A stretch of 64,000 nucleotides of DNA from a virus: positions 20,693 to 84,692 of IMG/VR virus record IMGVR_UViG_3300021093_000034. One strand, written 5' to 3'. Below the pieces are notes generated by a model. That model worked only from the letters and a program-made list of their open reading frames with translations, did no database searches and was not told the DNA's origin. Below are positions 11,323 to 64,000 of the stretch, one piece after another. Each line of letters opens with the position of its first letter. The stretch's first letter is position 1. Made by a program: the position numbers and the translations under genes.

Positions 11323-11323
11323 T

Positions 11324-19193: not shown

Positions 19194-19900
19194 TGTATGT
19201 GTTGGTATAATAAGTCTGATAAATGATTATGTCCATCTTCAAGAATATGTCCGTGAGGACCAATTGGAAATTTTTGACTTAAATCATTAATAGTAAAATT
19301 ATTCCATTTGTAAAATTTTTCTGTATCAATACATTTGATATAATATTGTATTTCGTTGTATTCTGCAAAAATTTGCTCATCATTCATGAGATCAAAATTT
19401 ATTAAATCTTTAACAGAAGATATAAATTTATGTTTAGGAGCAAGCCATTTGCTTAGATCATTTGGAAAGGTGTTAATCATTAAATAATTTTTTTTAAATT
19501 TTTCAAAGCAGCTTTGTAATTGAATAATTTGCTGCAACCAAAGTTTGAATGAAAATAATTCATTGTGCCAATGCTTGTATAAAGTTTTGCCCCAATTGGT
19601 ATAAAAAGCATTATCGCAATAAAGTTGATTCTTCAACAATGGGTTAAAATTTATTTCATAATTATTGTCTGATTTATAAAATGTATATCGACTAGTGGCA
19701 GTCCACGCAATAATGTATAAATTACAATTTTTATTAAAGTTTTTTAAACTTTGATATACAGTTCTATAATTTGTACCACCACTAACAGCATCATTAATCA
19801 CTGTTGTGTTAAGCTTTTTAGCTAAAAGATAAGGCCAGGAATTATTTGTATCACTTAATTCGTAGCCAAAAGTAAAACTACAACCATTGGTATAAATCAT
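19172..19900 (-). CDS. SGNH-hydrolase-like protein, type B
   Basis: This 242-residue protein has its nucleophile block at the very N-terminus, NGCSFTFG (5-12), then a DAVSGGTNYR block (second SGNH element) and DGHNHLSD near the C-terminus as the Asp/His element. Without a signal peptide it would act in the cytoplasm. The same architecture (GCSFT, PGGGN, DGHP) recurs at 62922-63647. It is inserted between gp47 and gp46 with overlaps at both ends. Base composition is visibly more AT-rich than gp46 and gp47, consistent with separate acquisition. Confidence 0.7.
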   Translation of the reverse strand: MIYTNGCSFTFGYELSDTNNSWPYLLAKKLNTTVINDAVSGGTNYRTVYQSLKNFNKNCNLYIIAWTATSRYTFYKSDNNYEINFNPLLKNQLYCDNAFYTNWGKTLYKHWHNELFSFKLWLQQIIQLQSCFEKFKKNYLMINTFPNDLSKWLAPKHKFISSVKDLINFDLMNDEQIFAEYNEIQYYIKCIDTEKFYKWNNFTINDLSQKFPIGPHGHILEDGHNHLSDLLYQHIQCLKYEL

Positions 19901-43200: not shown

Positions 43201-46200
43201 GTCCATAATAAAATTAGTGTGGATATAAATCAAGCTCGAAGAACCTTGAGTGCTAAGGCATTAGAATCTTACATAACAGCTCCTAAAGATCAAGGTATAC
43301 CATATCTAGCTTTATTGGCACCCAACAGCGTTGCAGTCTACAATGTAACTGATCAATTGATCGGAAACGACGTGGCTATCCATTTGGATGTGGCTCAAAT
43401 TAGAAACAGCAACTTGATGCACAGTGAATGGCAAATGGTACAACAAAATGCCGGCGCTGAATCTATTCCGGTAAGATTTATTTCAAAATTAAGAGATAGT
43501 ATTGTAGGATTTGATGACACAGGCTTGATTGTTCCTGATCCATTGTTGAAAGCGCAAGATCGCCTTGGTATTTTAAATATGCCAAGACAAACTCTGATGT
43601 CTAATAGATTAGGTGCTTTACAAAATTATGTAGAAACACTTAATGCAATTTTAGTGCGCTACCCTACACTACTAATAAAAACACCATCTACACTGTTTTT
43701 AGAAGATCCACTGCCTACCACTGGCTTTAATACACAGACAAGTAATGTCACAGATCTAACTTATCTAAGCACCGATGCCTTTACCAATGGATATAAGATT
43801 TTAATACCTAATGACTCTAATTATCAAGGTAAATGGAGCATTTACAGTTTTAATTCAACCAACGATACTTTTGAATTATTTAGATTACAAAGTTTCAAAA
43901 CAGAATTGTTTTGGAGCCCTACTGTATGGTATGACACCACTTTTCAAAACGGCAAAGATATCAACTACACTGTGGCAATCTACAGCGATATTCAAGCTCT
44001 GAGTCCCGAACCTGGTGATTACATAAAGGTACTAGATAATGGTCAAGGCAAGTGGTTACTGTACGAAGCTCAGGATGGCGGATCTTTAAGTTTGATTGGG
44101 GCCGAAAATGGAACACTACAAGTAAGCACAGAAGTATTTGATGTGACAGTGAGAGCCGGTTATGACAGCGCCGTTTACGATTCTGTAGGATTTGATCCAC
44201 AAGCAGTCCAAGAGTTAAAAAATATTTACAACAGTGTGTATCAAGAAATACTAACAGGCAATCTGAGTAACGAATTAAACAGATTATTCCTTACAATTGT
44301 AAACTTTATATTTGCAGAACAAAAGAATCCAGACTGGATTTTTAAAACAAGCTTTATTGATGTTTATCATAATCTTAGAAATTTGGAACAGTTCCCAAAT
44401 TTTGTAAGAGACAATCAAAGTTTTTACAATGATTATATTCAAGAGGTAAAACCATATAGAACACAGATTAGAGAATACGTACCTAGTTATATAAAACAAG
44501 ATACGGCTGCAGGTGATTGGACAGATTTTGATTTACCAAGTGTGTATGATGCTAGATATGGAAAATTTAGAAGTCCTGACATAGCGATTACACAAGATGC
44601 ATCGTTGTTTGAAAATGAAATTTATAGCGATTGGGCAAACAATTACAAATTCAAAGTAACTGATTATATAATTGGTAATATAGGGCTTAATTATGTATTA
44701 CCTCCCAATGTAGAAATTACTGGCGGCGGTGGTATTGGTGCTGCGGCTATAACAACACTATATGCCAATGGTCGTGTGGCTTCTATTACAGTCACCAATG
44801 CAGGATCAGGATATACGTCAACTCCAAATGTGTTTATAAACGGCGATGGTGTAGGAGCCACAGCGTATCCGCTATTGAAAAATGAATTTTATAGTTCCCA
44901 AACAAATCTCAGTTATAATCTAGTTAGAAGTATAGATACTCAAATTAAATTTGATAGATTTGCATATTCTAGTAACTTGATATTATGGCAACCAAACACA
45001 GCTTATGCTAATACTGTTGTAACATCAGGTAACACAGTTACTGATCAAGGAAATATCTATATCAGTAGCGGAAATATTGTTGTATATAACAATCAGGCCT
45101 ATTTGGCAACTAACGCAAATATTTCTACTCAAAGCACATTTGATTTCACTAGATTTACAGTAATCGACAGTGGCAATACATTGCTTAATGCTGCAGACAG
45201 AATAATAGCCTACTATCAACCAGAAGTTGGGATGACTGGTCGAACTCTTACTCAATTGATTAACGGACTAGAATATCCCGGAATAGAGGTTTTAGGAACC
45301 GAATTTAGAACCAATGCATTTGAAATTACAAGCAATGTAATCTCATTTAACTATACTGGTTTAACCATAGACAGTGGCAATGTTGATGCGGTAAATTTCC
45401 AAACTTTAGGTTTTGAAGTGGATCAAAGTATCAGAATTGAAGCACAGGTGCCATTTGAATTTCAGAATAACGGATATTTTACCATAGTCAATGTTACAAG
45501 AGATTCAATGACATTGACTGGACAACCAGTCGAAACAACTTACAAAATTTTATTAGATTCGCCAATTACTGCCAATCTAGGAGATTATATAACTCAGGCA
45601 AACACATTGGCTAATGCTTATGTGTTACAGTCAGTTACCAATTCGTCCACAGTGGATTTAATATACACCGTGCCTGAATTTACTGTATCATCAAACAATA
45701 TCAGCATCAATGGTGTAGCTATCCAATCAAATATTGCAGAAATAGGTACAGGCGGCAATGCCAACGTAAAAATATCGTATCTAGATTTACAACAAGTATT
45801 AGATTCTAATATATACAGCAAATATCTTGACACAGCATTGGGAACCAGGCCTCAAGATATTAATATCGTAGGCGGTGCATATGTTGACACTTATGCAAGT
45901 CATGCGCCCGAGGAATTGATACCAGGAAGAATGTACGATGCAATGGAAATGCGTGTTTTCAGTAATACAACAGGAAATACAGAAACCTATGGATTTAGGT
46001 TATTCCAACCAATGAGTGCCAATGCAGTTTATACCAGAATCAATGCCAACGCCACTACTACTCTGTCGGCCAATTTAAATCTAATAGATGATGAAATTGT
46101 TGTAAACGATGCAAGTAAATTACCTGACCCTAGTCCAAGCTTGGGCAATCCTGGTATTGTGTTTATTAATGGCGAAAAAATTCATTATTATCAACGCTAT

Positions 46201-46914
46201 GATGCTGCTAGACTGGCCACAGCAACACCTTGGACCGCTAATACTGTGATTCCAGCTGCTACACTTATTGCATTAGACAGTAATGTATATTTGACTACCG
46301 GCAACGTTTATGCAAATGCCAATACATACATAAACTCGGCAAATATTCAGCTTATTACAGTAAATTCATTGCGTCAACTGAGACGCGGAGTTGATGGTAC
46401 AGGTGTATCAAATGTCATATTGTCAGGGAATACTATATCAGATAGCAGCCTTACTCAATTAATTCCAGACGCTCAGATTTATTCTGCTGTAACAGTCAAT
46501 GGTAATATTACAGTTACATCAAATGTAAGTTTTAAATTGATAATGAGTTCGAATATTACTGCCAATGTTGGGGATTACATCACGCAATTTGCAAATACAG
46601 GAAATGCAAGAGTTTTACAATCTGTAACAAACGGCAATATTGTAGCAGTTGATTTTGTCACTGGCACATTCCAAACGGCATCTAACATAGGAACCAGAAT
46701 AAACATAGCTAGTATTACCGGTGGTGTTTCTAGTGTCAGTGCAAACGTGCTCAATATCAACACTTTAGGATCAGTGTTTGCAAATGGTAATGTTGTGTTG
46801 TCCAGTGTTCCTTTATTACAAAGCAATATTTGGGAACAATTAGGAACTACCCTACAAAATAGCAACACAATTGGTGCACAATTTATTAGAGCGGAGCCTA
46901 GTTATATACCATGA
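34225..46914 (+). CDS. Giant baseplate wedge-like protein with FG-GAP repeats
   Basis: The 4229-residue protein begins MAAFKTLQFLPEIFRTDTNR, then NGYIGRK and TKARQDYQLEPSI, a start I associate with the gp7-position proteins of aquatic T4-like phages; T4 gp7 has 1032 residues. Between about residues 2190 and 2830 there are six FG-GAP-like repeats: FGRSIA, FGASLS, FGSAVV, FGAQLS, FGATLK and FGAAID, each followed by a short hydrophobic strand and a Y-Y/V-Y motif, as in integrin-alpha-type beta-propellers. A GGGGIGAAAITT...GSGYTSTPNVFI module lies at about 3500-3550. A duplicated ITANxGDYITQ segment occurs at about 3780 and 4112. It is co-directional with gp6 and fibres, so a peripheral wedge or fibre-holding role is likely. 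A ribosome site AGGATTAG precedes the ATG. Confidence 0.65.
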   Translation: MAAFKTLQFLPEIFRTDTNRKFLNATVDQLVSEPNLIKVNGYIGRKLAPSYKASDSYITEPTKARQDYQLEPSIIIKNTNSGELTFATTYTDIVNKINFYGGFGNNQNRLFDNEYYSYDPQIDLDKFVNFAQYYWLANGPDAVIVSASAVPLEATYGVTFDSTTQTYRFTGFDNAPNPVITLARGGRYTFVNNEPGNKFYIQTSPGLLGVDPNAPNLTTRTVLGVTNNGQDVGDTVFQVPLASAQLQWTNMPVIGNVNYATSLSYQSLQGCLLSDLENVLGGLDGPTSSLEDATIIFVNNEFIDDIYWVNTARIQNNIIRLDQASLIPLSERNNVYQIGLFEDDQGDVRIYLTNKLSVSNEQKVRIKAGITNAGKEFYSRLDLYNQVPAITAPINLLFYQSDQTDSAVGAIQLIDPSAALIDPDLEIIGQRTYTSPGGVVFTNGLKVTFDSTVSAPYANNTYYVEGVGTSITLMLVSNLICPELNDDLSLPDYLTINRGSLDLNGWARSNRWFHVAVIAATANYNGTDLFLDQNYRAQRPIIEFKPNLQLFNFGTESKNPVDVLDNIITNAYTQVQGVLCASTSQVTITVDGETVTFNDGDRIIFSQDENLDVRNKIYDFSIELTTEAPDPLEYRAFIQEASDATVEESQTIIVKSGANGPKQWYFNGTIWIEAQQKTAVNQAPLFDLINLEGISFGTNSVYPGSTFAGSKIFSYKIGTGSNDSVLGFPLSYKNLVTQGDIQFENNFDYDTFSYILDAGVTRTISVNAGLIQQNLSRITSTRLNTWVINSNFSKQYQIFNFTYDGSTNLFPVDILPDISVSVPNIKVVINNVPVPAGQFALTKVVDKLAVLINPSLLATNDVVFISIWNSSTASTQGFYQVPLNFDINSLNTDLETLTLGQMRNHLTEFKNNSLDIVGEVPGYSNLRDIDFSNRGGSILQHSAPIIYAGLFLNHPEMNFVDALRLASKEYSQFKIKFLEAAANLELDRTNIAACVDTIMSTLNSVKNDTFPYHYSDMVPYGEDERVALPSYTVFDTDIRAYEITRIFDDAAVSNKAVFIYLTRQLNGTVSTTLLVKGQDYYFDQTRPAVVIQDSFNLLYNDIISIVEFNNTDGSYVPETPTKLGLYPKYVPEIFTDNTYRTPIQVIQGHDGSLTPAFGDFRDSLLLELERRIYNNIKVEYNILNFNINDYVPGKFRLLDYSRQEFNQLLSQNFLQWVGTNRVDFTTNNTFKASDPFTWNYRKFRDVVNGESLTGTWRSVFRYFFDTDRPHTHPWEMLGFSEKPSYWDDRYGPAPYTGGNLVLWGDLESGYIHAGTRAGVDLRYSRPGLTQIIPVDDSGNLRKTSEFLVTDFDSAAANTSFAVGDIGPTELAWRRSSDFPFAMQYALAIGKPARYFALLGDVRHYFRSNTTGQFVDTVDNKHIQPNILRVNGYIDMDDTVERSAGYINWIRDYLKNIGINDAGTIIKNNLERMTVQLSYKMAGYSDKRFLELLAEQVSPSSINDSVVIPEENYSIELYKGAPLNKIVYSAVIIEKSVNGYTVSGYDTTNPYFYIVPSLPNNNAYVIEVDGQRGTIFRDFKTQRYTIPYGFEFNTKQQVVDFLVSYQRFLIAQGFVFEDRDNLLNEKKDWVLSAKEFLHWSKQGWRTGNIFVCSPVSTSIKVFNETAVVDEIKNTPNSSRVLDINYQAIKKNNFTIIRDSNLFTFNSLLNQTIGLAEFNLVQYEHLLLLDNTTVFRDVIYVPETGNRQYRLKLVGAKTQFWNGSLELPGYIYGSDKTDEWQPGQDYLKGSLVSHKARIYTAIENISAADQFQTASWKQLGLNELQSGVINNFATNAKQSLQYYDINDQPIDEQVQLFSNGLIGFRPRQYFTNLGIDIVTQSKFYQGLIKQGGTANAINALRGAQFNNLNTELNFYENWMMRVGEYGSLDINQYYEFLLSDSVFDNNPAVFQLSDGTVATQTDIAVFDQTSTYKLSGAFNPNFLRVEDNSQSKELRPLPTAGFVNLDDVDGTIFDIQDYASYADIVDNMSVGFTLWTARDFDKQWNVYRCCNVPGLAFILRYNTESQAELVISAEHGLEENDLIALKNFDPRYNGIYRVNAIIDSTRFLITIYNNLQDLIDAEAVIANGIVYKLQSSKLATPTAVIESTPNSGWAVNDKVWIENLDNEGNWGVYTRTDPWEYQNRIQLGESQYAGNDHFGRSIALDNSPLYLFGGAPDSSNGRVSIYARNSNNGWDSYGFLWGNNPVLDSFGKVLATATVGSSNFLAVSASDSGSKQGVVYVFENQVLVQILADVSGTAGDEFGASLSMGDDAKYLYIGAPGANKVYCYALNYPREEVTQNLIGSTGVATFNLSFAAADASDIIVTAPLRAAEYFPGIDYTTASGPDRIIFTVAPSDGDRITVQKRTYHYTLLDTLPVSSESAVGSQFGSAVVSNSDGSTIAVGAKSTIVDGLNEAGAVYLYHRTTTEFVTNGLTNTFTLPDNLGNVFYVYYNDVLLTNGTDYYLIGTNIVQFAGFNIPPAGNRLVVESNQFILDQIIYPQTVGSAGGSFGAQLSMCNSGCNLYVSSPAYLEPNYRFGLVTRFVNAGRVYGTVTGTVIGPTVTIGETIVINNRVVTFTGTSLASVVSAINGANIPGVTASISYNKIKIDSDVVVAANRLNIVSGNTGTPLIDLGIDDYKFVQIIRHPDTLGETFGATLKVDQASGTLAIGSDGADISIPIDIDSTLAIPTLFDSGGTKFVDQISDSGAVYIYNLMNNPYEDVDNPSLFAFTQKLLGPNLDTGFNFGAAIDLRSDYLIVGVSNDYNIVTEGGSLYYYYNQDATSGWTLTRYKEPRVDIGAVNSAFLYNTVSQNILDFFDYLDPVKGKLLGAVEQELDFKEDYDPASYNRSNRTNTINNTNFYWSDRQVGKTWLDLSLMSFIDYEQGILQYRVKNWGSLFPGSQVKIYEWVESNFLPSQYATSAGDGIARYPDDTAYSSVTVVDPATGIITQKYYYWVHNKISVDINQARRTLSAKALESYITAPKDQGIPYLALLAPNSVAVYNVTDQLIGNDVAIHLDVAQIRNSNLMHSEWQMVQQNAGAESIPVRFISKLRDSIVGFDDTGLIVPDPLLKAQDRLGILNMPRQTLMSNRLGALQNYVETLNAILVRYPTLLIKTPSTLFLEDPLPTTGFNTQTSNVTDLTYLSTDAFTNGYKILIPNDSNYQGKWSIYSFNSTNDTFELFRLQSFKTELFWSPTVWYDTTFQNGKDINYTVAIYSDIQALSPEPGDYIKVLDNGQGKWLLYEAQDGGSLSLIGAENGTLQVSTEVFDVTVRAGYDSAVYDSVGFDPQAVQELKNIYNSVYQEILTGNLSNELNRLFLTIVNFIFAEQKNPDWIFKTSFIDVYHNLRNLEQFPNFVRDNQSFYNDYIQEVKPYRTQIREYVPSYIKQDTAAGDWTDFDLPSVYDARYGKFRSPDIAITQDASLFENEIYSDWANNYKFKVTDYIIGNIGLNYVLPPNVEITGGGGIGAAAITTLYANGRVASITVTNAGSGYTSTPNVFINGDGVGATAYPLLKNEFYSSQTNLSYNLVRSIDTQIKFDRFAYSSNLILWQPNTAYANTVVTSGNTVTDQGNIYISSGNIVVYNNQAYLATNANISTQSTFDFTRFTVIDSGNTLLNAADRIIAYYQPEVGMTGRTLTQLINGLEYPGIEVLGTEFRTNAFEITSNVISFNYTGLTIDSGNVDAVNFQTLGFEVDQSIRIEAQVPFEFQNNGYFTIVNVTRDSMTLTGQPVETTYKILLDSPITANLGDYITQANTLANAYVLQSVTNSSTVDLIYTVPEFTVSSNNISINGVAIQSNIAEIGTGGNANVKISYLDLQQVLDSNIYSKYLDTALGTRPQDINIVGGAYVDTYASHAPEELIPGRMYDAMEMRVFSNTTGNTETYGFRLFQPMSANAVYTRINANATTTLSANLNLIDDEIVVNDASKLPDPSPSLGNPGIVFINGEKIHYYQRYDAARLATATPWTANTVIPAATLIALDSNVYLTTGNVYANANTYINSANIQLITVNSLRQLRRGVDGTGVSNVILSGNTISDSSLTQLIPDAQIYSAVTVNGNITVTSNVSFKLIMSSNITANVGDYITQFANTGNARVLQSVTNGNIVAVDFVTGTFQTASNIGTRINIASITGGVSSVSANVLNINTLGSVFANGNVVLSSVPLLQSNIWEQLGTTLQNSNTIGAQFIRAEPSYIP

Positions 46915-53390: not shown

Positions 53391-53420
53391 TTTACATTCA
53401 GCAACTGGTTAGTGTATAAT
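53391..53420 (+). promoter_or_regulatory. Sigma70-type promoter for cargo operon
   Basis: TTTACA (53391-53396) and TATAAT (53415-53420) are spaced by 18 bases. The -10 box is perfect and differs in kind from the late octamers of the window. It lies in the only spacer ahead of the whole 53450-64000 gene cluster, so transcription there could begin early with host sigma. The predicted start is about 20-25 bases ahead of the ATG. Confidence 0.6.
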
Positions 53421-53435
53421 AATCACTAACCAGTT
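53403..53435. repeat. 12-bp inverted repeat around the -10 box
   Basis: AACTGGTTAGTG (53403-53414) and CACTAACCAGTT (53424-53435) are perfect inverted copies around 9 bases that begin with the TATAAT. As DNA this could be an operator whose bound protein blocks the promoter. As RNA it would be a hairpin that could end the fibre transcript, but the following TTTCTAC is a poor T-run. Both uses are possible. Confidence 0.75.
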
Positions 53436-53449: not shown

Positions 53450-53764
53450 ATGAATACTATCGACGATATTGTGACCGAAGTTCGTAGGGCCACAGATTTT
53501 CAAATCAACAAGCAGATTCTACGCGAAAAAATTCAAACAGATCTACATATGACTCATCGCGGCGGCATGTTCAAAATAACACCAGAACTTTTGGCATTTG
53601 TGAAAACATGGCCTGTAGACGAACTTTATCTTGAAGACATTTACCAAAATCCCGTTCAAATTGATCGTCAAACATTTCTTGTAACTGCACAACAGCACTA
53701 TCAAACAGTAATGAACACTTGGCATCAAGAATATGAAGAACTCAAAAAAATCAGAAAAATCTAG
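53450..53764 (+). CDS. Small uncharacterised protein, first gene of cargo operon
   Basis: This 104-residue protein is a mixed alpha-helical protein (MNTIDDIVTEVRRATDFQIN... with TWPVDELYLEDIYQNP in the middle) and a charged C-terminus ending EELKKIRKI. No family is recognised and there are no Cys or His clusters. No clear ribosome site precedes the ATG. It overlaps the next gene by 32 bases. It could be a regulator, given its place directly behind the palindromic promoter, but that is speculation. Confidence 0.55.
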   Translation: MNTIDDIVTEVRRATDFQINKQILREKIQTDLHMTHRGGMFKITPELLAFVKTWPVDELYLEDIYQNPVQIDRQTFLVTAQQHYQTVMNTWHQEYEELKKIRKI

Positions 53765-54521
53765 AGGCATCGTGGCATTTGCTTACAATGTTGATACAAT
53801 TGATTATGTGTCAATTGCCAAAAATATTTTAGAGTTGGCTAGTCAACTACTTGGAATTCCGTATACTTTAATTACAGATAAAGAATTTGAAAATACAAAT
53901 TACACAATGCGTTGTGACGTAGACACTGGCGAATTTATTAAGTGGCGCAATGTAGGAAGACATCATGCATACGAGTTATCACCATATGACGAAACTTTAG
54001 TGATTGATGTGGATTATTTGATATTGGACAACAATTTAAATAAAATTTTTGATGTTAATTGGGATTATTTACTAGCAAGAACAAGCACTGCCTTGACAAC
54101 CACTTGGTCCAGTCAAATGGGAGAAACCAGTTTACCGTATGTTTGGGCCACAGTGTTTGCTTTCCGGAAAACACCTCGAGCTCAGATGTTTTTTGATCTT
54201 GTGGGAAGAATTCAAAGAAACTATGCCTACTATTGTGCTTTGTTTAATGTGCAAGAACGAAATTTTAGAAATGACTATGCATTTGCCATGGCAGACATAA
54301 TTTTAAATGGATACGCTCTATATAAAAAATCTATTCCGGGCAGCATATTGGCAGTGGATCAACCAATTGAAAGTATTTGTTTGTCAAACAAAAAAGTCAT
54401 TGTCAAAGATAAAAATAGAGCCTATGTGTTACCACGTACAAATTTACACATAATGAGCAAAACTTATTTGCAAAGCGATGACTGCCAACAGTTTATCAAT
54501 CAGGTGCTTGATGAGTCATAA
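53733..54521 (+). CDS. GT-A-like glycosyltransferase candidate
   Basis: This 262-residue protein has the layout of a nucleotide-sugar transferase: AFAYNVDTIDYVSIAKNILE (15-34), LITDKEF (46-52), and VIDVDYLIL (90-98) containing the DVD metal site. The region GETSLPYVWATVFAFRKTPR (about 128-147) resembles the acceptor side of glycogenin/galactosyltransferase (GT8-like) folds. It is related in layout to the next gene. It overlaps the gene upstream by 32 bases and the gene downstream by 11. Donor and acceptor are unknown. Confidence 0.55.
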   Translation: MKNSKKSEKSRGIVAFAYNVDTIDYVSIAKNILELASQLLGIPYTLITDKEFENTNYTMRCDVDTGEFIKWRNVGRHHAYELSPYDETLVIDVDYLILDNNLNKIFDVNWDYLLARTSTALTTTWSSQMGETSLPYVWATVFAFRKTPRAQMFFDLVGRIQRNYAYYCALFNVQERNFRNDYAFAMADIILNGYALYKKSIPGSILAVDQPIESICLSNKKVIVKDKNRAYVLPRTNLHIMSKTYLQSDDCQQFINQVLDES

Positions 54522-55305
54522 AGCACAATTGGGATTCTTAACTGTTGCTTGCAACACCGAACATGTTGATTATCTTAGATTGGCTTATTTACAGGCTGTA
54601 AATGTCAAACAAACACAAAAGAACAATCAATATGCTGTGATAGTCGACAGTGCTACTCTAACTAAAGTTAGTGAAGATCACAAAAAAGTTTTTGATTACG
54701 TGATTGAAGCACCAGACCATGCATTTGGACCTTTTGGCACAGAAGCATTTGCATTTGAATTGACACCATTTAAAGAAACCATAAAACTAGAAAGCGATTT
54801 GTTATTTACAAGAAGTATAGACCATTGGGTACATGCATTTAGATTACGAGATATGGTACTAAGTGTTGGCAGTAGAAATTATCAACAACAAATATCCAAT
54901 GTTAGAAATTATCGAAAAGCATTTGATGATAACAATTTGCCTGATGTATATAATGGGTTGATGTATTTTAGATTTACCAAGACAGCACGAGATTTTTTTG
55001 ACACAACAAAACAAATATATAGTAACTGGAACACAATTGTTAACGAGTTAAAAAATTGTAGAGAATCTGTACCCAGCACAGACGTTGTTTTTGCTTTGGC
55101 TGCACAAATTGTCGGACGAGAACTTTGCACATTACCAAGCGCAGACTTTATAAATTTTGTGCATATGAAGCCTGCTATTAACGGATTCAACGAAGATTTA
55201 AAATTCAGTGAAGTGTTTGTAACTGAACAGGACACAGATATGATTAGAATCAACAATATCAATCAATATCATCCTATACATTATTATGATAAAGAATTTT
55301 TATGA
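54511..55305 (+). CDS. Second GT-A-like glycosyltransferase candidate
   Basis: This 264-residue protein counts from the ATG at 54511, which has AGGTG five bases upstream; an earlier in-frame start at 54478 lies inside the previous gene. It shares the plan of the previous gene: LGFLTVACNTEHVDYLRLAY (7-26), LESD (93-96) replacing the DVD metal site, then DVYNGLMYFRFTKTARDFFD. The changed metal site could be functional or could mean lost activity. The C-terminal part ends in NQYHPIHYYDKEF. Confidence 0.55.
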   Translation: MSHKAQLGFLTVACNTEHVDYLRLAYLQAVNVKQTQKNNQYAVIVDSATLTKVSEDHKKVFDYVIEAPDHAFGPFGTEAFAFELTPFKETIKLESDLLFTRSIDHWVHAFRLRDMVLSVGSRNYQQQISNVRNYRKAFDDNNLPDVYNGLMYFRFTKTARDFFDTTKQIYSNWNTIVNELKNCRESVPSTDVVFALAAQIVGRELCTLPSADFINFVHMKPAINGFNEDLKFSEVFVTEQDTDMIRINNINQYHPIHYYDKEFL

Positions 55306-55673
55306 GTGAAAATCTATGGGACGAAGTTGCTAGATTAGTGGCCGAGTATGATGCTGCTCGCCCAGTGATTACAAAAGAATATAGACTGTATTACAATCAT
55401 GACGGAACCGTAATTGGACTTTGGGAGAGCAATCATCCCACCGGCGACAATTTTATTGTGTTAGATGATCCGGGCATGTTTTATAGTGCAAATACTCTTT
55501 TACTACGAGTGCAAAATAAAAAATTAATTGTATTAGATCCGCGAGCACCTGCAAAAACACGATTACAAAAATCCAATCAAGGATTTAGAGTAGTAAAAGG
55601 ACATGCCGCTTTGATTTTAGAACAGGATGAAATCTATCCAGAAGTAGAATATTATGACCAAAAAAATAATTGA
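55302..55673 (+). CDS. Hypothetical protein between glycosyltransferases
   Basis: This 123-residue protein has an acidic N-terminal helix, EYRLYYNHDGTVIGLWESNH (about 26-45) and a beta-rich centre with VVKGHAALILEQDE (about 96-109). No Cys or membrane features. No family is recognised. It overlaps its neighbours (ATGA at the start and 20 bases at the end), so it is likely translated with the glycosyltransferase candidates and may be part of their complex. Confidence 0.55.
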   Translation: MSENLWDEVARLVAEYDAARPVITKEYRLYYNHDGTVIGLWESNHPTGDNFIVLDDPGMFYSANTLLLRVQNKKLIVLDPRAPAKTRLQKSNQGFRVVKGHAALILEQDEIYPEVEYYDQKNN

Positions 55674-56583
55674 TATTGCAGATTTAGATTGTATCTTTTT
55701 AACTTATGACGAACCTAAAAAAGAAGAATTTTGGATTAGGATTCAAAACATGGTACCGTGGGCAAAGAGAGTTGATGGAGTTAAAGGGTCTGATGCAGCG
55801 CATAAAGCAGCCGCTGCCGCGTCAGACACAGACCGTTTTGTTGTTATTGACGGAGACAATATTCCGGATCCAGAATTTTTTAATCTACAACTATCGTTGG
55901 ACGAGAGAAATCATGACCACGTTTTTAGGTGGAAGGCCAGGAATGCTGTAAACGGTTTAAGATATGGTAACGGTGGTGTAAGCTGCTGGACCAAGGATTT
56001 CGTTAATCGTATGCGAACACACGAAGCAAGTCTTGGGGATGAGGAAACTGCCGTTGAGTTTTGTTTTGATCCTAAGTATACAGCAATGCATAATTGTTAT
56101 AGCACTACATATCCTAATGGTAGTTCCAAACAAGCATGGCGTGCAGGATTCCGTGAAGGTGTCAAGATGTGTCTTAACAGGGGACACAAGCCCACTCTAC
56201 AAGAATTTGAAGAAGGTGTGAACAAAAGGAACTATGATAATTTATGTATATGGCACTCAGTGGGTGCAGATGTGGAAAATGGTTATTGGGCAATGTATGG
56301 AGCACGATTAGGCACATACATGATCATGCTTGAAGGGTGGGATCATCATTATGTTCAGGACTTTGACATGCTTGAAAAACTATGGACCAGTTTTAGTACT
56401 GAAGATCCTGAAGAAGGTTGTGCTAGGATCCAAGATGCATTAAAAAATAGATTAGGATTACCTATTGTTATGTATACACCAGAACAAAGTCAATTTTTTA
56501 AACATCACTACAGTATTGGGCAGCGTAATAGTGAAATTATGATGACTGAGATAGATGTAATTCGGAGGATCGAAGGATGGTAA
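55654..56583 (+). CDS. Glycosyltransferase, GT-A type
   Basis: This 309-residue protein has IFLTYDEPKKEEFWIRIQNM (14-33), a nucleotide-sugar region and FVVIDGDNIPDPEF (62-75), where DGDN (66-69) is a metal-binding DxD. FRWKARNAVNGLRYGNGGVS (about 91-110) matches the acceptor-side pattern of family-2-like glycosyltransferases. It has no signal peptide or membrane helix, so it works on a soluble or membrane-surface acceptor. It overlaps both neighbours by several bases. Confidence 0.65.
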   Translation: MTKKIIDIADLDCIFLTYDEPKKEEFWIRIQNMVPWAKRVDGVKGSDAAHKAAAAASDTDRFVVIDGDNIPDPEFFNLQLSLDERNHDHVFRWKARNAVNGLRYGNGGVSCWTKDFVNRMRTHEASLGDEETAVEFCFDPKYTAMHNCYSTTYPNGSSKQAWRAGFREGVKMCLNRGHKPTLQEFEEGVNKRNYDNLCIWHSVGADVENGYWAMYGARLGTYMIMLEGWDHHYVQDFDMLEKLWTSFSTEDPEEGCARIQDALKNRLGLPIVMYTPEQSQFFKHHYSIGQRNSEIMMTEIDVIRRIEGW

Positions 56584-57536
56584 TTTTAGAAAATAAAGAC
56601 ACACATATTTTTAATTTGCCTGAAAAAATTGTAGATATTGTACACGAGTATACAAATACCGGCAAAGTAATTATTACAACTAACTCAGAAGGTTTGTGTC
56701 TTTTGTCGGCTAATTTTTATAATACATTAGATTATGTTTGCTCTAAATTTCAAATTAGTAAAAAATCAATTATTATAAAAACTTGTAATGTAGAAGAATT
56801 TCATCCAGAATACACAATAAAAATTTTAGATAATTATTATATAGATAGTTGTAAGCCTTATTTAAAAGTTAAATTATTACAAAAAAATCATCAGTTACAT
56901 ACTGTAGGTTGTTTTATAGGAAAGCCAAATTGGCATAGATTAATAATATCGGCATGGCTTTACACAAATTTTAATAATAAAATTCTGTTAACGTGTCACT
57001 ATAATCCGCAAGATGAAAGACATTTAATTGACAGCGAGTTAACAATGTTAAATCAACTAGCTTTTAACGAATTATCTACAGTAATACCATATATGAAAAA
57101 ATGTCCTGTGTATTTAGATGAAGGATTTTTAGATTATACTATTGGACCACCAACTCATTATAATTTATTGCAAAAGTACACTGACATATTTTTAGATTTA
57201 GTAGTCGAAACATATGTAACTGGTAAAACATTTTTTCCTACCGAAAAAACTCTAAGACCTATTATAGCAAAAACTCCTTTTATAATAATGGGTCCTCAAG
57301 GATATTTGTCTAATCTTAGAAGAATTGGATATAAAACTTTTTCAAATTGGTGGAGCGAAGATTATGACAATTTTAATGGGTATCAACGAATTTTAGAAAT
57401 TAAAAAAATTTTAGAAAATGTATTTACATGGCCACATAGTAAATTAAATGATACTTTAAATGAAATGAATAATGTATTAGATCATAATAGAACGGTATTA
57501 CAATATATGAAAGGTAGTGAAGTAAAACTGTCATGA
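56577..57536 (+). CDS. Uncharacterised protein of glycan-cluster type
   Basis: This 319-residue protein, strongly AT-rich (long Ile/Asn/Lys runs), has a conserved-looking C-terminal part: VETYVTGKTFFPTEKTLRPI (about 214-233), AKTPFIIMGPQGYLSNLRRI and GYKTFSNWWSEDYDNFNGYQ. I have seen this arrangement in aquatic phage proteins near glycosyltransferases, but function is not established. The N-terminal 180 residues are not recognised. The composition differs from its neighbours, suggesting a separate origin. Its start overlaps the stop region of the previous gene. Confidence 0.55.
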   Translation: MVILENKDTHIFNLPEKIVDIVHEYTNTGKVIITTNSEGLCLLSANFYNTLDYVCSKFQISKKSIIIKTCNVEEFHPEYTIKILDNYYIDSCKPYLKVKLLQKNHQLHTVGCFIGKPNWHRLIISAWLYTNFNNKILLTCHYNPQDERHLIDSELTMLNQLAFNELSTVIPYMKKCPVYLDEGFLDYTIGPPTHYNLLQKYTDIFLDLVVETYVTGKTFFPTEKTLRPIIAKTPFIIMGPQGYLSNLRRIGYKTFSNWWSEDYDNFNGYQRILEIKKILENVFTWPHSKLNDTLNEMNNVLDHNRTVLQYMKGSEVKLS

Positions 57537-58915
57537 CAAAAAGTATCTTTCTCTCTTCTGCGGAGGCTATGCAAGAAAAATTAGGTCCTGCGCTTTGTCT
57601 TGCTAAATGGCAACAGGTCAGTCTACATCTTCCAACAGGACTAACTAACAGTTGCTATCACCCTCCACTACACGAAATAGATGCCGCACTATTGAAAGAT
57701 AATCCCAGTGCGCTACACAATACACCACACAAAAAAGAACAGCGTAAAATTATGTTACGCAATGAACGACCGCAGGAGTGTAGTTATTGCTGGACACAAG
57801 AAGACCTAGGCAATTTAAGTGACAGGCATTATCGTTCAGGCGAACCCTGGGCAGCGGAACATTTTGATCGTATCATCAACAGTACCGGAGACGAAGATGA
57901 AATTCCAAGTTATGTGGAAGTCAATTTTAATAACGCTTGCAACCTTAAGTGTAGCTATTGCAGCCCTCAGTTTAGCAGCACTTGGGCTGACGAAATTGCT
58001 AGGTACGGAGCGTATCCCACTAGTAATCGTCATAATGACCCCACTTTTTTTATGGACCGCAGAAGGCCTACGCCCAATCGTGAGGATAATCCTTATGTTA
58101 ACGCTTTTTGGGAGTGGTGGCCAAGTCTTTATCCACGGTTAAAACACTTTCGAATGACCGGCGGCGAACCTTTAATGGATCGTAATACCTATCGTGTATT
58201 TGATTATGTATTGGCTTTTCCTAAATCCGATTTGCACATTGATGTGACCAGCAATTTCAGTGTGGAAGAAAAGTTATGGGAACAATACTTCAATTATGTA
58301 AAACAGTTGTGTAATACCAATATAGAGCATTTTATGCAGTATGTGAGTTTGGACTCTGGTATCCCGGAGCAAGCAGAATATATAAGACACGGGATGGAAT
58401 TCAAACGAGTTTTAGCCAGGGTCGAATTTTTCTTAAGACACATACCCGGTCGCAATAGTCTTACATTTATTATTACTATGAATAATCTAAGTGTTTTAGG
58501 TTTGCGAAGACAATTAGAAACCATTCTTTCATTGAGAAGATACCATAGTACAACATATCAACGTGTTTGGTTTGACACACCAATATTGAGACAGCCCACG
58601 TGGCAAAGCTTACAAATACTTCCTTCTGTATATGCACGTCGATTGCAAGATGTAGTAGATTGGATGCAGGAAAACTCGGAGACTGTTGAACGTCCGTTTC
58701 AAGGATTCAAAGATTATGAAGTGCAAAGAATGCAACGGGTTCTAGATTGGATGCAAGAAGGTAGCAAATTAGACGCTGAATATGTTAAACTACAACGTGC
58801 TGATTTTTATAAATTCTTTAGTGAGCACGATAAACGAAGAGGAACCTGGTTTCTAAATACATTTCCAGAAATGCGAGAGTTCTGGAACGAATGCCAATAT
58901 CATGCCCAAAATTAA
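57533..58915 (+). CDS. Twitch-type radical-SAM enzyme 1
   Basis: This 460-residue protein has an N-terminal Cys module (Cys22, Cys41, Cys83, Cys86; CYHPP and ECSYC), a twitch-type auxiliary cluster, then the radical-SAM motif CNLKCSYC (136, 140, 143) and TGGEPL (about 209-214). The order, twitch before radical-SAM, matches the N-twitch family of phage and marine radical-SAM proteins. The C-terminal 100 residues are helical and end in a conserved NTFPEMREFW. The same architecture repeats in the next three genes. Substrate unknown. Confidence 0.8.
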   Translation: MTKSIFLSSAEAMQEKLGPALCLAKWQQVSLHLPTGLTNSCYHPPLHEIDAALLKDNPSALHNTPHKKEQRKIMLRNERPQECSYCWTQEDLGNLSDRHYRSGEPWAAEHFDRIINSTGDEDEIPSYVEVNFNNACNLKCSYCSPQFSSTWADEIARYGAYPTSNRHNDPTFFMDRRRPTPNREDNPYVNAFWEWWPSLYPRLKHFRMTGGEPLMDRNTYRVFDYVLAFPKSDLHIDVTSNFSVEEKLWEQYFNYVKQLCNTNIEHFMQYVSLDSGIPEQAEYIRHGMEFKRVLARVEFFLRHIPGRNSLTFIITMNNLSVLGLRRQLETILSLRRYHSTTYQRVWFDTPILRQPTWQSLQILPSVYARRLQDVVDWMQENSETVERPFQGFKDYEVQRMQRVLDWMQEGSKLDAEYVKLQRADFYKFFSEHDKRRGTWFLNTFPEMREFWNECQYHAQN

Positions 58916-60257
58916 TAACGAAACAGATTTAGAATACAAGCGCAGAGTGATCGACATCAAGTCCAAATCATTCTGTGGAGCCAAATGGTATAATGCTACA
59001 ATTTGGCTAGGATCAGGTATGACTACGTCATGTCATCACCCACTTCCTCACAAAGTTGATGTTGGAGATGTGCAAGTCAACCCCAGGACACTACACAATA
59101 CATCTAAGAAAAAAGAAGAGCGTCGCCAAATGCAAGCGGGCGCAAGACCTACAGGTTGTGAATATTGTTGGAAGATTGAAGACATTGATAGAAATAATAT
59201 CAGTGATCGAGTTTACAAAACAGTAATTTACTCAGATGAGGACTTAAATTATGCGTACAACACAGACCCTAGCGAAGATATCAATCTTCGAACTCTTGAA
59301 ATTAGTTTTGACCGCACTTGTCAGTTTGCTTGCTCTTATTGCAATCCTGCGTTCAGTAGCACTTGGGTTAAAGACATCAATACCCATGGACCCTACACTA
59401 ATTTGGTGTCTGACGGCAGGAATCATTTTACTCATAGCCATGACAGTTCGCAGCTTTTTAAATATGGTGAAAATAACCCATATGCAGAAGCCTTCTTTAG
59501 ATGGTGGGAATCAGACCTCCACCAAACCTTAGACGAATTACGTATAACCGGAGGCGAGCCACTCATGTCCGGATACACTTGGCAACTACTTGATTGGTTT
59601 CAACAAAACAAAGGTTGTAGCCAAACCAGACTTGCAATAAATTCTAACCTAGGAACACAAGTTGATCTCGATCGTTTATTTTCAAGTGTGGACACACCCA
59701 TTGACCTATACACTAGTAATGAAAGCATCGGCCTACACTCAGAGTATATTAGAGACGGATTGGCCTGGGACGATTGGGCTAATACTGTAGAATTAATCTT
59801 AGACCATCAAATTGATCATAAACTACGTGCTTTGCACATCATGTGTACTATCAATGCACTGTGTTTAGACAGTTTAACAGACTTCTTGGAATGGGTAATT
59901 AATTTAAAACTATGCTATGGTCGAGAAGCGGTGAACTTTTCTTTAAATATCCTACGTTTTCCAAGTTTTCAATCTGCCCTAGTACTACCTAGCCAAATAC
60001 GCACCAAGTATAAAGATCAACTTATAGACTTTATGGCTAGACACCAAGGTTCAGAGTTTGTACACGAATATGAATGGAATCAGCTACAACGTTTGATTGA
60101 TTATCTTGACGTGGTTAAAACTTCTCATACCGGAGCAGCAGAACAAGATGTATTACAAAAAGATTTCAAAAATTTTTATACACAATACGATATAAGAAGG
60201 AAAAAAGATTTTTGTAAAACTTTTCCTAATTTAGCTGATTGGTTCATTAACATATGA
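58902..60257 (+). CDS. Twitch-type radical-SAM enzyme 2
   Basis: This 451-residue protein is the closest relative of the gene before it: twitch Cys25, 44, 86, 89 (SCHHP, GCEYC), radical-SAM CQFACSYC (140, 144, 147), TGGEPL, and CKTFPNLADW at the end. The two N-termini align almost block by block (SLHLPTGLTNSCYHP vs WLGSGMTTSCHHP), so they are tandem duplicates. It overlaps the first by 14 bases and the third by 4. Confidence 0.8.
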   Translation: MPKINNETDLEYKRRVIDIKSKSFCGAKWYNATIWLGSGMTTSCHHPLPHKVDVGDVQVNPRTLHNTSKKKEERRQMQAGARPTGCEYCWKIEDIDRNNISDRVYKTVIYSDEDLNYAYNTDPSEDINLRTLEISFDRTCQFACSYCNPAFSSTWVKDINTHGPYTNLVSDGRNHFTHSHDSSQLFKYGENNPYAEAFFRWWESDLHQTLDELRITGGEPLMSGYTWQLLDWFQQNKGCSQTRLAINSNLGTQVDLDRLFSSVDTPIDLYTSNESIGLHSEYIRDGLAWDDWANTVELILDHQIDHKLRALHIMCTINALCLDSLTDFLEWVINLKLCYGREAVNFSLNILRFPSFQSALVLPSQIRTKYKDQLIDFMARHQGSEFVHEYEWNQLQRLIDYLDVVKTSHTGAAEQDVLQKDFKNFYTQYDIRRKKDFCKTFPNLADWFINI

Positions 60258-61720
60258 GTGTAAAAGATTTTTACAATAAAGGCTATGTGTATAATGCCCG
60301 TTCTCCTTATTTTATAGAAAAAGAAAAACTGTCAAACCAACATTGGCAACGTCTAACTGAAAGCAAAACATTCTGTATGATGCCCTGGGTTCATATGCAT
60401 GCATTTCCAGATGGCCGTGCCTATCCGTGTTGTCTTGCAGATTACTGGCATCCAGTTGGAGATTTAAGAAAAAATACCATGGAAGAAGTTTGGAACCAAG
60501 ACGCATACAAAACCATGCGTCAAAACATGTTAGAGGACAAATCGTGCAAAGAATGTACCAAGTGTTATGAACAAGAAGCAAATGGTTTCTTTAGTATGCG
60601 ATACGATAGTAATCGTAATTATGGACATCATATAGCAGAAATAGATCAAACACTGCCAGATGGTACTCATCCAGAATTCAAGATAAGGTATTGGGATGTC
60701 AGATTTAGCAATCTTTGTAATTTTAGTTGTCGCAGTTGCGGTCCAATTTTTAGTAGCAACTGGTATAATGATCATGTTAAACTTTATAATCGTAAGCCCG
60801 ATGTACTTGGCAGAGACATGGCACGAGTTGAATACACCGCCGGCGATGAAGACGCCATGCTCGAGCAAATGCTCCCCCATATTCCATATCTTGAACAAGT
60901 TTATTTCGCCGGCGGTGAACCTTTAATTATGAAGGAACATTATTTCTTATTAGAAAAGTTAATTGAACATGGCAAGACAGATATCAGGATTCAATACAAT
61001 ACAAATTTTAGTGAATTGAGATACAAAGATAAACATGTGTTTGACTATTGGAAGCACTTCAAAAACGTCAGCGTAGGTGCCAGCTTGGATGCCAGCGGAG
61101 AGCGTGCTGAACTCATGCGTAAAGGCACAGATTGGTCTCAAACACTAGAGAATCGACGACACATGATGCAAGAAGTTCCGCATGTTGATTTTTACGTCAG
61201 TGCCACTGTAAGTGCTATGAACGTATTACATGTATTAGATTTTCATCGTGAATGGACAGAACTAGGATTAATTCAAGCTAAAGATTTTAATATTAACTTG
61301 TGTCAGAGTCCTAACTGGTATCGTGCAAATATTTTTCCTAAAGAATTTAAAGATCAAGTAATTGTGCCTGCCTATAAACGGCATCTTGACTGGCTACGAC
61401 CAGTTGATTCACTTAAACGAGCTACAAATGGATACGAATCACTATTAAATTTTATTCAAACAAACAATTCAGATATACAGGTTAACCTACAGGAATTTGA
61501 GTATGAAACTCAAAAAAGTTCGTCGTGGCCAGACTGGGAAGATTTTCAAAAAGGAAAAAGAACTGATGATGAAGAAATAAACAGAGAAATTGAAGAATTT
61601 GTAAAAGAAAAAAAACAAACTATTGAATTTGAAAGCTTTAAAGCACAAATCAAAAAACTAGACAGTGTTAGAAATGAAAACTTTTGGAACACATTTCCTG
61701 AATTAAATGATCTTGCCTAA
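60254..61720 (+). CDS. Twitch-type radical-SAM enzyme 3
   Basis: This 488-residue protein has FCMMPWVHMHAFPDGRAYPC (40-59) with CC at 59-60, then CKECTKC (98-104) as the N-terminal twitch, radical-SAM CNFSCRSC (155, 159, 162) and AGGEPLIM (about 222). The C-terminal 90 residues are charged helix. The MPWVHM opening differs from enzymes 1-2 and matches 4 and the cut gene 5, so two subfamilies are present. It overlaps its neighbours. Confidence 0.8.
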   Translation: MSVKDFYNKGYVYNARSPYFIEKEKLSNQHWQRLTESKTFCMMPWVHMHAFPDGRAYPCCLADYWHPVGDLRKNTMEEVWNQDAYKTMRQNMLEDKSCKECTKCYEQEANGFFSMRYDSNRNYGHHIAEIDQTLPDGTHPEFKIRYWDVRFSNLCNFSCRSCGPIFSSNWYNDHVKLYNRKPDVLGRDMARVEYTAGDEDAMLEQMLPHIPYLEQVYFAGGEPLIMKEHYFLLEKLIEHGKTDIRIQYNTNFSELRYKDKHVFDYWKHFKNVSVGASLDASGERAELMRKGTDWSQTLENRRHMMQEVPHVDFYVSATVSAMNVLHVLDFHREWTELGLIQAKDFNINLCQSPNWYRANIFPKEFKDQVIVPAYKRHLDWLRPVDSLKRATNGYESLLNFIQTNNSDIQVNLQEFEYETQKSSSWPDWEDFQKGKRTDDEEINREIEEFVKEKKQTIEFESFKAQIKKLDSVRNENFWNTFPELNDLA

Positions 61721-62921
61721 AACAATATGTATGCTTCCATGGGTAAGCATTGAAACCAGTCCTATTGGTACTGCTAGACCTTGCTGCTTGGCCAGAAACG
61801 AAATCACAAACAGTGATGGTAACAAGTTTGATCTTAACAAAGACAATTTAGAAAACATTTATCACAGTGAATACATGCAAAATCTTCGTAGACAATTTAG
61901 AGCCGGAGAAAAGCCTAGCACTTGTAAATTGTGTTGGGACGAAGAGGCAGCCGGTAGAACAAGTAAAAGAATACACAGTAGGGTAAGATTAAAAGAATTA
62001 TATGAGTTAGTTGATTGGGCAAATGACGATCCGGATCAACTTTGGTTTCTGGATTTAAAGTTGGGAAATATTTGTAATCTTAAATGTAGAATATGCGGAT
62101 CTTGGTCTAGCAGTAAATGGGCAGCAGAAGAACTAGATTATATGCCAAAAGATTTTGATAAAAAGTCGCATATTGCCTATCAGTGGCTACGGCAAGGTGC
62201 GTGGCCAAGAAACAAAGATACAAATTTTTGGGATAATCTAAAAACACTATTGCCTAATATCAAGTATCTTGAATTCACTGGTGGCGAACCTTGGTTAATT
62301 GAAGAACACTTTGATTTATTAAAATACGCAGTTGCACAAGGATACAGTAAAAATATTGATATACATTATAATACAAATGCTACCCAGATGCCCGGAGAGT
62401 TTGATGCTGTCATTTGGCAAGAGTTTGGTCGTGTAGATATTGCATTTAGTATTGACAATGTGGGTGCCAGATTTGAATACGAACGGTACGGCGCTAAATG
62501 GGAATTGGCAAATGAAATTATTGATTATGTACATTACAGCCAAGTCACGATGCCAAACATTACTACACAACTTTGTTTTACCATAAATGTGCAAAATGTT
62601 TACTATCTTGATGAATTATTAGCGTGGGCAGATACCAAACCGTTTGGCAGCGTGTATTTTAACATGATGCATAGCCCAGATCATATGAGTGTACAGCATA
62701 TGACGCCACAGGCTCAAGACTTGGTTTTAAATAAATTAAAAACTCATTTTTGGCAAAATAAAAATTATTTGAAAGAAGTTGACAATGTAATAAAATTTAT
62801 CGAACAAGGCCCAGGTAGTGACGGCTCCGAATTTCGAGAAAAAATGCAAAGAACAGATACTTATAGAAAACAAAATTTTAAAAATACACATTCAGAAATA
62901 GCATTGGCAATGGGGTATTAA
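61707..62921 (+). CDS. Twitch-type radical-SAM enzyme 4
   Basis: This 404-residue protein starts at MILPKTICMLPWVSIETSPI with Cys8, CC at 26-27 and CKLC (73-76) in the twitch part; radical-SAM CNLKCRIC (123, 127, 130); TGGEPW (about 192). It has the same MLPW start as enzymes 3 and 5. The C-terminus is helical and basic. It overlaps the previous gene by 14 bases; the next gene begins directly after its stop. Confidence 0.8.
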   Translation: MILPKTICMLPWVSIETSPIGTARPCCLARNEITNSDGNKFDLNKDNLENIYHSEYMQNLRRQFRAGEKPSTCKLCWDEEAAGRTSKRIHSRVRLKELYELVDWANDDPDQLWFLDLKLGNICNLKCRICGSWSSSKWAAEELDYMPKDFDKKSHIAYQWLRQGAWPRNKDTNFWDNLKTLLPNIKYLEFTGGEPWLIEEHFDLLKYAVAQGYSKNIDIHYNTNATQMPGEFDAVIWQEFGRVDIAFSIDNVGARFEYERYGAKWELANEIIDYVHYSQVTMPNITTQLCFTINVQNVYYLDELLAWADTKPFGSVYFNMMHSPDHMSVQHMTPQAQDLVLNKLKTHFWQNKNYLKEVDNVIKFIEQGPGSDGSEFREKMQRTDTYRKQNFKNTHSEIALAMGY

Positions 62922-63647
62922 GTGAAAAATTTAATAACAACAGGATGTAGCTTTACAGCAGGCGTGATTCCGTTGCCTCACGAAAACAAAATAGCTTGGA
63001 AAAATCGAGGTAGCGTATGGCCACACTTTTGTTTTGCTGAAATGAATCCTGCACAAGATAAATTTGTTAATTTGGCTATACCTGGCGGTGGCAACATAGC
63101 TGCATTTACCAATTTAATCTATGTGTTAGAAAATAATAAAACATTTACACCTGACAATACGCTCATAGGTATAAATTTAACTGGAATGCATCGATATGAC
63201 GCAATTAGTGATTCTGCAAATGTTCAAGTGAACAAAAATTTGTGTTGTATTGATATCGATGGCATAACACACATTAGTGATACTTTAGGATTTGGTTGGA
63301 TCACTGGCAAACATTTTGGTAATCAAAAAGTCGATATTTTATCAGCCGTCACTATTATTCAAGGTCTATCGTATCTAGAATTGCGTAAATTTAATTATTT
63401 TTTTATGTTAATGAATAATGCAATTTATGATTATTCTCCAGAATGGTTTCAACAGGCTTTAGATATAAGAAAATCCAACTGGATAACATTCAATAAACAT
63501 ATAGGCATGTTTGAATTTGTTCGCAATCTAAATCAAGTAACAGAAGATGGGCATCCAACTACAGATCGGCATAAAAGAATTAGTGAATTTGTGATCGAGT
63601 ATATTAAAAATAATTGCAAAAATTATTTAGACAATTATGCAGCATAA
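62922..63647 (+). CDS. SGNH-hydrolase-like protein, type B paralog
   Basis: This 241-residue protein starts at a GTG immediately after the previous stop. TTGCSFTAG (6-14) is the nucleophile block, IPGGGN (about 53-58) the second block and EDGHPTTDRH (about 208-217) the Asp/His block. It parallels the type-B protein at 19172-19900, which has GCSFT and DGHNH in the same places. It is embedded between radical-SAM genes 4 and 5, linking SGNH and radical-SAM functions. Confidence 0.7.
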   Translation: MKNLITTGCSFTAGVIPLPHENKIAWKNRGSVWPHFCFAEMNPAQDKFVNLAIPGGGNIAAFTNLIYVLENNKTFTPDNTLIGINLTGMHRYDAISDSANVQVNKNLCCIDIDGITHISDTLGFGWITGKHFGNQKVDILSAVTIIQGLSYLELRKFNYFFMLMNNAIYDYSPEWFQQALDIRKSNWITFNKHIGMFEFVRNLNQVTEDGHPTTDRHKRISEFVIEYIKNNCKNYLDNYAA

Positions 63648-64000
63648 TTTATGTATGGCACCTTGGACTCATACTTATTTGAGTCCACAAACTGAACGAC
63701 GCATGTGTTGTGCCAGTAGAGAACCCGCACAAAATTTTAAACAGTATATTGATAGTGCCGTGGGCACAGGCAAGTATATTCCTATAACACTTGAAGAGCA
63801 TTGGAACAGTGATCATATGCGTAGTGTACGCCGACGCATGATGGCCGGAGAAGTATTACCCGAGTGTGAAGTATGTAACGATCGATTGTTAAACACAGAT
63901 GTTTACCGCAGTTATTTTAACAATTTATTTGCCCATAAGTACAAACAAGTAGTAGAAACAACAGACGCTTCGGGACACACAACAATGGAGCCTGTTTCAT
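63637..64000 (+). CDS. Twitch-type radical-SAM enzyme 5, cut by edge
   Basis: The ATG at 63637 lies within the last codons of the SGNH gene. The frame stays open to the window end, giving 121 residues. It starts MQHNLCMAPWTHTYLSPQTE with Cys6, CC at 24-25 and CEVC at 77-80, the same N-twitch layout as enzymes 3 and 4. The radical-SAM motif itself should lie beyond the window. It shows that the radical-SAM array continues downstream. Confidence 0.75.
   Translation, partial: MQHNLCMAPWTHTYLSPQTERRMCCASREPAQNFKQYIDSAVGTGKYIPITLEEHWNSDHMRSVRRRMMAGEVLPECEVCNDRLLNTDVYRSYFNNLFAHKYKQVVETTDASGHTTMEPVS

Follow-up and report, generated by a model that had tools for sequence, protein, structure and literature searches.

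What might a virus make with five radical-SAM (rSAM) enzymes encoded one behind the other? The question is raised by a viral stretch of 64,000 nucleotides, hereafter the window, which covers positions 20693-84692 of an 84,692-bp IMG/VR contig (G000) and ends where the contig ends. A single overlapping array of five N-twitch rSAM genes occupies positions 57533-64000 of its plus strand. It belongs to a cassette ordered as tail fibres, u104, gt1, gt2, u123, GT309, X319, R1, R2, R3, R4, SGNH, R5, U366, SGNHs, and carbamoyltransferase. The same phage encodes a major head protein, a protease, a portal protein, and a baseplate wedge protein of phage type, and these protein families suggest that it is T4-like. 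Upstream of the cassette lie genes for a baseplate wedge protein, a 4229-aa virion protein, and fibre-like proteins.

Gene content of the cassette

The five rSAM genes start at 57533, 58902, 60254, 61707, and 63637, exactly where the initial annotation had placed them. R1 (57533-58915), R2 (58902-60257), R3 (60254-61720), and R4 (61707-62921) score 307, 285, 387, and 336 bits, respectively, against the N_Twi_rSAM model NF033640, whose curated cut-off is 170 bits. R5 (63637-64000) is cut at the contig end, as had been noticed, and its 121-aa stub reaches 88 bits over model positions 2-110. A separate IMG/VR contig, L009, is 100% identical to window positions 59703-64000 (4,298 bp) and then runs on, so the array is no local mis-assembly. 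This extension supplies the complete R5 (L009:3938-5227, 429 aa), which scores 280 bits, above the cut-off; the N-twitch and rSAM plan attributed to all five genes is, therefore, confirmed.

An SGNH-like gene with a GTG start (62922-63647) stands before the fifth rSAM gene, as had been claimed. Inserted at a hotspot, between R4 and R5, it falls into one HMM family with the SGNH genes of L009. Past R5, that contig encodes U366, three SGNH-type genes, a carbamoyltransferase, and a fourth SGNH-type gene, followed further downstream by an APS-kinase-like protein, a nucleotidylyltransferase-like protein, and a dCMP deaminase. The carbamoyltransferase (L009:8443-9924) matches PF16861 at 157 bits and PF02543 at 131 bits, above cut-off, and is of the NodU/CmcH type, while one of the SGNH genes of L009 has a weak PF13472 match. 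For U366, no fold match was obtained in the PDB, and its BFVD matches consist of unnamed phage proteins only.

Ahead of R1, three glycosyltransferase-type genes and two small genes had been counted; there are six genes. The first, u104 (53450-53764), encodes a small conserved protein of 104 aa adjoining the fibres, without a Pfam-type or phage-record match. It is followed by the transferase-like gt1 (53733-54521) and its paralogue gt2 (54478-55305), related to each other with an hhalign E-value of 5.8e-12; gt2 also has a weak phrog_1903 match. Then come u123 (55302-55673), a small variable protein of 123 aa, the very conserved GT309 (55654-56583), and X319 (56577-57536), a member of a mobile hotspot family found inserted at several sites in relatives.

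The glycosyltransferase label given to these genes has to be loosened. At E 0.01, neither Pfam nor NCBIfam yields a match for the transferase-type genes before the array, and a comparison of GT309 with PHROGs returned nothing useful. GT309 carries an IDGDN motif, and its predicted model (pLDDT 82) finds its best PDB fold match in the nucleotidyltransferase HddC (E 3.6e-3, probability 0.99), followed by glycosyltransferases; the protein may thus be called weakly GT-A-like. X319 appears glycosyltransferase-like by its motif FFPTEKTxRPMLxKxPFI only, without database support. Together, gt1/gt2, GT309, X319, the SGNH-type proteins, and the O-carbamoyltransferase presumably form a sugar-decorating set, judging from what is generally known of these families.

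From u104 to U366, all the junctions overlap or abut. Overlapping had been correctly described, with a range of 4-32 bases that should read 4-44 bp, one junction being of 0 bp. Larger gaps are found before u104 (64 nt) and among the downstream SGNH and kinase genes (51 and 19 nt). No transmembrane segment is predicted in the core cassette proteins; one downstream SGNH protein passes a simple threshold.

Conservation of the array and its promoter-like element

Relatives were collected from IMG/VR with three seeds, R3, the unrelated protein U366, and R4, whose sets overlap in contigs. With the seeds pooled, all five R genes (each at 300 bits or more) are found at 189 loci, corresponding to 114 distinct protein sets, 97 of which remain below 90% identity. 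Such co-occurrence indicates that the array is not due to chance. Only two orders exist among the 97 sets, that of the window (84) and R1-R2-R3-R5-R4 (13). All contigs holding the six genes, whether seeded with R3 (61/61) or U366 (58/58), keep the order R1-R2-R3-R4-R5-U366. Where the flank suffices, U366-seeded loci contain R5 (77/77), R4 (73/73), R3 (62/66), R2 (64/65), R1 (62/65), and the carbamoyltransferase (62/64), and GT309 lies upstream of R1 at all 54 testable loci. Synteny in related phages, chosen beforehand as a test that could refute the system, is overwhelming.

The R1-R2-R3-R5-R4 order marks a deeper branch, in which R4 is about 40% identical. This branch keeps gt1, gt2, GT309, and SGNH, mostly also the carbamoyltransferase where the contig reaches that far, and has no detectable U366. 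As it holds all five rSAM genes, the set outlasts a change of order. A still more distant group of loci (L079-L088) has related arrays with other partners.

Neighbouring genes are also found fused in single open frames: R3-R4 in L101, L151, and L156/L157, R1-R2 in L167, and the U366 and SGNH domains in L153. The R3-R4 fusions share a near-identical linker, and perhaps go back to one event. Following the usual reasoning on fused genes, these neighbours work together. The arrays also take up inserts, namely X319, SGNH, r371-type and g501-type rSAM genes, and further N-twitch genes, mostly at R1-R2, R3-R4, and R4-R5. Homologues of r371 and g501, with an SGNH gene, recur in a minus-strand cluster of the window (11.3-21.9 kb), which suggests that one accessory pool serves both sites.

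Across IMG/VR, R1-R5 constitute five separate orthologous lineages. In a FastTree phylogeny, every family is monophyletic (support 0.95-1.0), R1 and R2 are sisters, and one lower-scoring R1 relative falls within the R1 clade. The CxxxCxxC cysteines, on which the identification of these proteins as rSAM enzymes had been made to depend, are 100% kept among the 53-58 members of each of the five families. Four N-terminal twitch cysteines are likewise invariant within every family and across all five, as is the GGEP-type SAM motif in the joint alignment. For R1-R4, dN values of 0.1-0.29, with dS above 1.3 or saturated, reveal purifying selection. Recent redundant duplications were rejected on the basis of the five monophyletic lineages and of orthologue scores far above paralogue scores, and decayed copies on that of the invariant cluster cysteines and low dN. 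By their NF033640 scores and the motifs of the radical SAM superfamily, R1-R5 are predicted to bind an Fe-S cluster and cleave SAM. The joint retention of five paralogous lineages with intact active sites argues strongly for a single pathway with five different steps.

The gap of 64 nt before u104 contains the best sigma70-like match of the region, TTTACA (53391-53396) and TATAAT (53415-53420) separated by 18 nt. It is part of a promoter-hairpin element (53391-53435, plus strand), the hairpin of which (53403-53435) has perfect 12-bp arms and a 9-nt loop containing the -10 box. Within the window, no hairpin of this kind is longer; its RNA fold z is -6.3, and only one such element was found. In a generic scan of the region, promoter-like and terminator-like sites were not clearly more frequent than in shuffles. 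When a promoter match of 9/12 or better and a -10 box enclosed in a hairpin of eight or more pairs are required, the element is kept in 30 of 44 distinct relatives, versus 7 of 1479 regions upstream of other cassette genes. The 30 relatives have 27 different left arms, so that pairing is conserved, not sequence. Promoter-terminator elements called PeSL are said to have been described in T4-type phages by Arbiol in 2010 and Comeau in 2014. As a citing paper presents them, these elements join a sigma70-like early-type promoter to a stem-loop where two modules meet, and the element before u104, intergenic and with both parts, would be a candidate PeSL. With the 97 dereplicated sets and the fusions, this private promoter-like element strongly supports the proposal of the initial annotation that the cluster works as a unit, in the manner of an assembly line.

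The phage group concerned is widespread, but was not encountered in the deposited phage records searched. At least 529 IMG/VR stretches encode U366 relatives. No match to GT309, U366, gt2, or u104 was found among 50,697 deposited phage records, and a U366 match in Agrobacterium phage Atu_ph07 was not located by sequence. For R1 and R3, the only matches in deposited phages are distant ones: both match the Vibrio phages K566/K567, and R3 additionally matches a 7,955-bp fragment of a marine virus. In all branches seen, the array is tied to tail fibres. A chromosomal cluster borrowed from the host was considered and rejected: a genome scan with GT309 retrieved no more than eight loci, the majority of which have fibre genes of phage type and probably represent binned phage. 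Sixteen array-bearing contigs (144-374 kb) each contain 5-16 N_Twi matches; scattered N-twitch genes in the large contigs do not adjoin glycan genes, and their use as glycan-gene markers is, therefore, unsupported.

Candidate products and acceptors

The reading that we prefer is that of one genetic unit specifying a cytoplasmic pathway for the glycan-type decoration of a virion protein. Its substrate, chemistry, acceptor, and effect are what we infer, and we put its probability at roughly 40%. In such a pathway, gt1, gt2, GT309, and often X319 would assemble a sugar chain, on which the five non-redundant R1-R5 would carry out successive radical steps, such as dehydrogenation, epimerisation, or deoxygenation; R1/R2 would work as one pair and R3/R4 as another. 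The decoration would then be completed by the NodU-type O-carbamoyltransferase together with SGNH proteins serving as acyl-esterases or transferases. The likeliest acceptor would be a virion protein made by the phage, in the first place the tail fibres, whose genes directly precede the cassette, and surface recognition would be changed as a result. Of the two products initially envisaged, a glycan or a peptide, the companion genes favour the glycan, the chemistry being still conjectural, as are the surface shield and the altered fibres that had been suggested with it. Several points weigh against this reading, namely the transferase-like genes without a Pfam or NCBIfam match, the weak fold matches of GT309, and the scattered N-twitch genes away from glycan genes.

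The acceptor could also lie on the host. The same sugar pathway might alter an envelope glycan (O-antigen or capsule) during infection, excluding competing phages or stopping re-adsorption of the progeny. The pelagimyophage authors read fibre-linked islands of glycosyltransferase and radical-SAM genes in this way, favouring host O-chain modification (PMC7029224), which counts against a virion acceptor, and the sugar clusters of jumbo cyanophages were read likewise (PMC7824862). Nevertheless, the core is devoid of membrane proteins, and neither a GtrA flippase (PF04138) nor a Wzx-type flippase was found in ten contigs, which may be incomplete; control genomes were positive for GtrA. This favours a cytoplasmic acceptor, for example a phage fibre, over lipid-linked export. 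Host machinery could serve for export, and we consider modification of the host envelope doubtful.

A second alternative dispenses with the sugar chain as the rSAM substrate: R1-R5 would act directly, in a maturase-like manner, on amino-acid side chains of virion proteins, the fibres among them, with the sugar genes acting on the same protein. SPASM/twitch-type rSAM enzymes often act on peptides, the R families have weak matches to peptide maturases, and fibre genes lie directly upstream. Nevertheless, none of the five families is more than a distant relative of known maturases. The presence of a precursor-peptide gene beside its maturase, by which radical-SAM RiPP systems are recognized, was not observed: the u104-U366 genes overlap, and thus leave no space for a dedicated precursor gene in the core. 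The small precursor ORF that had been suggested as a check has no room there, and the route through such a gene is disfavoured. The accompanying claim, according to which peptides or small molecules are the known targets of N-twitch rSAM proteins, found no confirmation in this analysis. We know of no function established for NF033640 enzymes, and none was found in the open-access literature searched. Direct modification of virion proteins is, overall, unlikely.

Less probable still is the synthesis of a free small molecule, a sugar-derived metabolite or cofactor altering host physiology during infection. The closest solved structures by profile, all weak, include viperin, MoaA, and cytosylglucuronate decarboxylase, and carbamoyltransferase-bearing clusters resembling those of secondary metabolism have been proposed in jumbo cyanophages (PMC7824862), but a free metabolite would not need the tight link to tail fibres. 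Hypermodification of phage DNA bases, suggested by the dCMP deaminase and nucleotide-type enzymes downstream and by a thymidylate-synthase-family gene in six of ten array-bearing contigs, is highly improbable, given that PF00303 was not found in the other four, three of them above 300 kb, and that the array is linked to fibre genes rather than to those of replication.

Returning to glycan decoration, a bolder version can be formulated, in which one virus-only set, kept across deep divergence, constitutes a five-step radical-SAM relay with R1/R2 and R3/R4 as obligate pairs, performing a chemically unprecedented decoration of tail-fibre or envelope glycans. We hold this version to be possible, and rather speculative. 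R1-R5 offer a testable pathway instead of an isolated orphan enzyme, and the natural R1-R2 and R3-R4 fusion proteins are ready-made constructs for biochemistry. If the product is borne by virions or host surfaces, phage-host recognition would gain a new chemical layer, in phages that are widespread but missing from the deposited records searched.

Comparison with known systems

A fixed core of five N-twitch lineages, with fusions and a promoter-hairpin element, was not found described in the open-access literature searched. Individual traits of the cassette have counterparts elsewhere. The Vibrio phages K566/K567 have three clustered rSAM genes, R3- and R1-like at 24-26% identity, around which neither U366 nor any other core cassette family was recognised. 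TARA_ERS488813_N000010, a T4-like marine genome, has a likewise expanded set of 12 radical-SAM genes, which are not described as a conserved array with sugar genes (PMC5332604). Jumbo cyanophages carry clusters of glycosyltransferases and nucleotidyltransferases and a second cluster type with carbamoyltransferases; radical-SAM enzymes have 0 occurrences in that paper (PMC7824862).

In the host recognition cluster of pelagimyophages and cyanomyophages, which belongs to a T4-like structural region, glycosyltransferases and radical-SAM cassettes come after the tail fibres (PMC7029224). The pelagimyophage cluster is placed between VrlC and the neck gene gp14. Fibre-linked sugar-type transferases and radical-SAM genes in a T4-like phage are common to that cluster and the window, but the pelagimyophage cluster is described as hypervariable, without a fixed five-enzyme core, and the freshwater fonsimyophages of the same study have no radical-SAM genes (PMC7029224).

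Campylobacter phages CP220 and CPt10 have swappable clusters of five rSAM genes with an amidinotransferase; in CP220, the cluster is located near baseplate-type genes and includes two NDP-sugar-transferase-type genes (PMC2853527). The CP220 rSAM proteins tested are of 249-342 aa and are not N_Twi members, reaching at most 43 bits against the cut-off of 170; the cluster has no annotated carbamoyltransferase or SGNH gene. Between them, the CP220 and CPt10 clusters have little sequence in common; R1-R5, by contrast, are fixed lineages. A homologue of the CP220 amidinotransferase is encoded by a hotspot gene in one relative of the window array, L044 (25% identity, E 3e-21). Modules of several rSAM genes in T4-like phages are, then, already known from CP220 and the pelagimyophages, and the CP220 module has in common with the window array its five rSAM genes, its sugar-type transferases, and its T4-like phage.

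Contigs filed under bacterial genomes and genes 3' of the array

The contigs L170-L177 are assigned to bacterial metagenome-assembled genomes, mostly marine, of Neomarinimicrobiota, Rickettsiales, Gammaproteobacteria and Neisseriaceae. Phage fibre genes accompany the transferase-like genes gt1-gt2-GT309 in most of them, and these contigs look like phage sequence binned into bacterial genomes.

Downstream of the array, the locus L009, which completes R5, contains two overlapping genes (10645-11614) that correspond to the N- and C-terminal halves of phrog_10255 ('kinase', one phage family); as they match opposite halves, the kinase-nucleotidylyltransferase protein appears to be split there. In L093-L095, L124 and other loci, a second GT309-family gene is found, usually 3' of the carbamoyltransferase gene, and is often preceded by a gene of the mobile hotspot family X319 in opposite orientation.

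Dispersed N-twitch copies and virion genes

The array-bearing contigs G001-G016 (144-374 kb) each hold 5-16 matches to the N_Twi_rSAM model (NF033640). The additional copies are dispersed across these contigs, several of them adjoining fibre-like or other apparent virion genes. In L178 (G001:C1:286500-295500), an extra radical-SAM gene adjoins genes of 151 and 539 aa, the latter with a GroEL chaperonin-like start, judged by eye only. In the window, the fibre genes are preceded on their upstream side by a gene for a 4229-aa virion structural protein of phrog_10938 (34225-46914).

A second radical-SAM cluster

The window's minus strand carries a second cluster (11324-21868), which includes three radical-SAM genes (13357-14472, 14977-16482, and 16768-17427) and an SGNH gene (19172-19900). 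In other phages, the R1-R5 array of N-twitch radical-SAM genes contains inserts homologous to the first two. Of these two, the 501-aa protein resembles B12-type radical-SAM enzymes.
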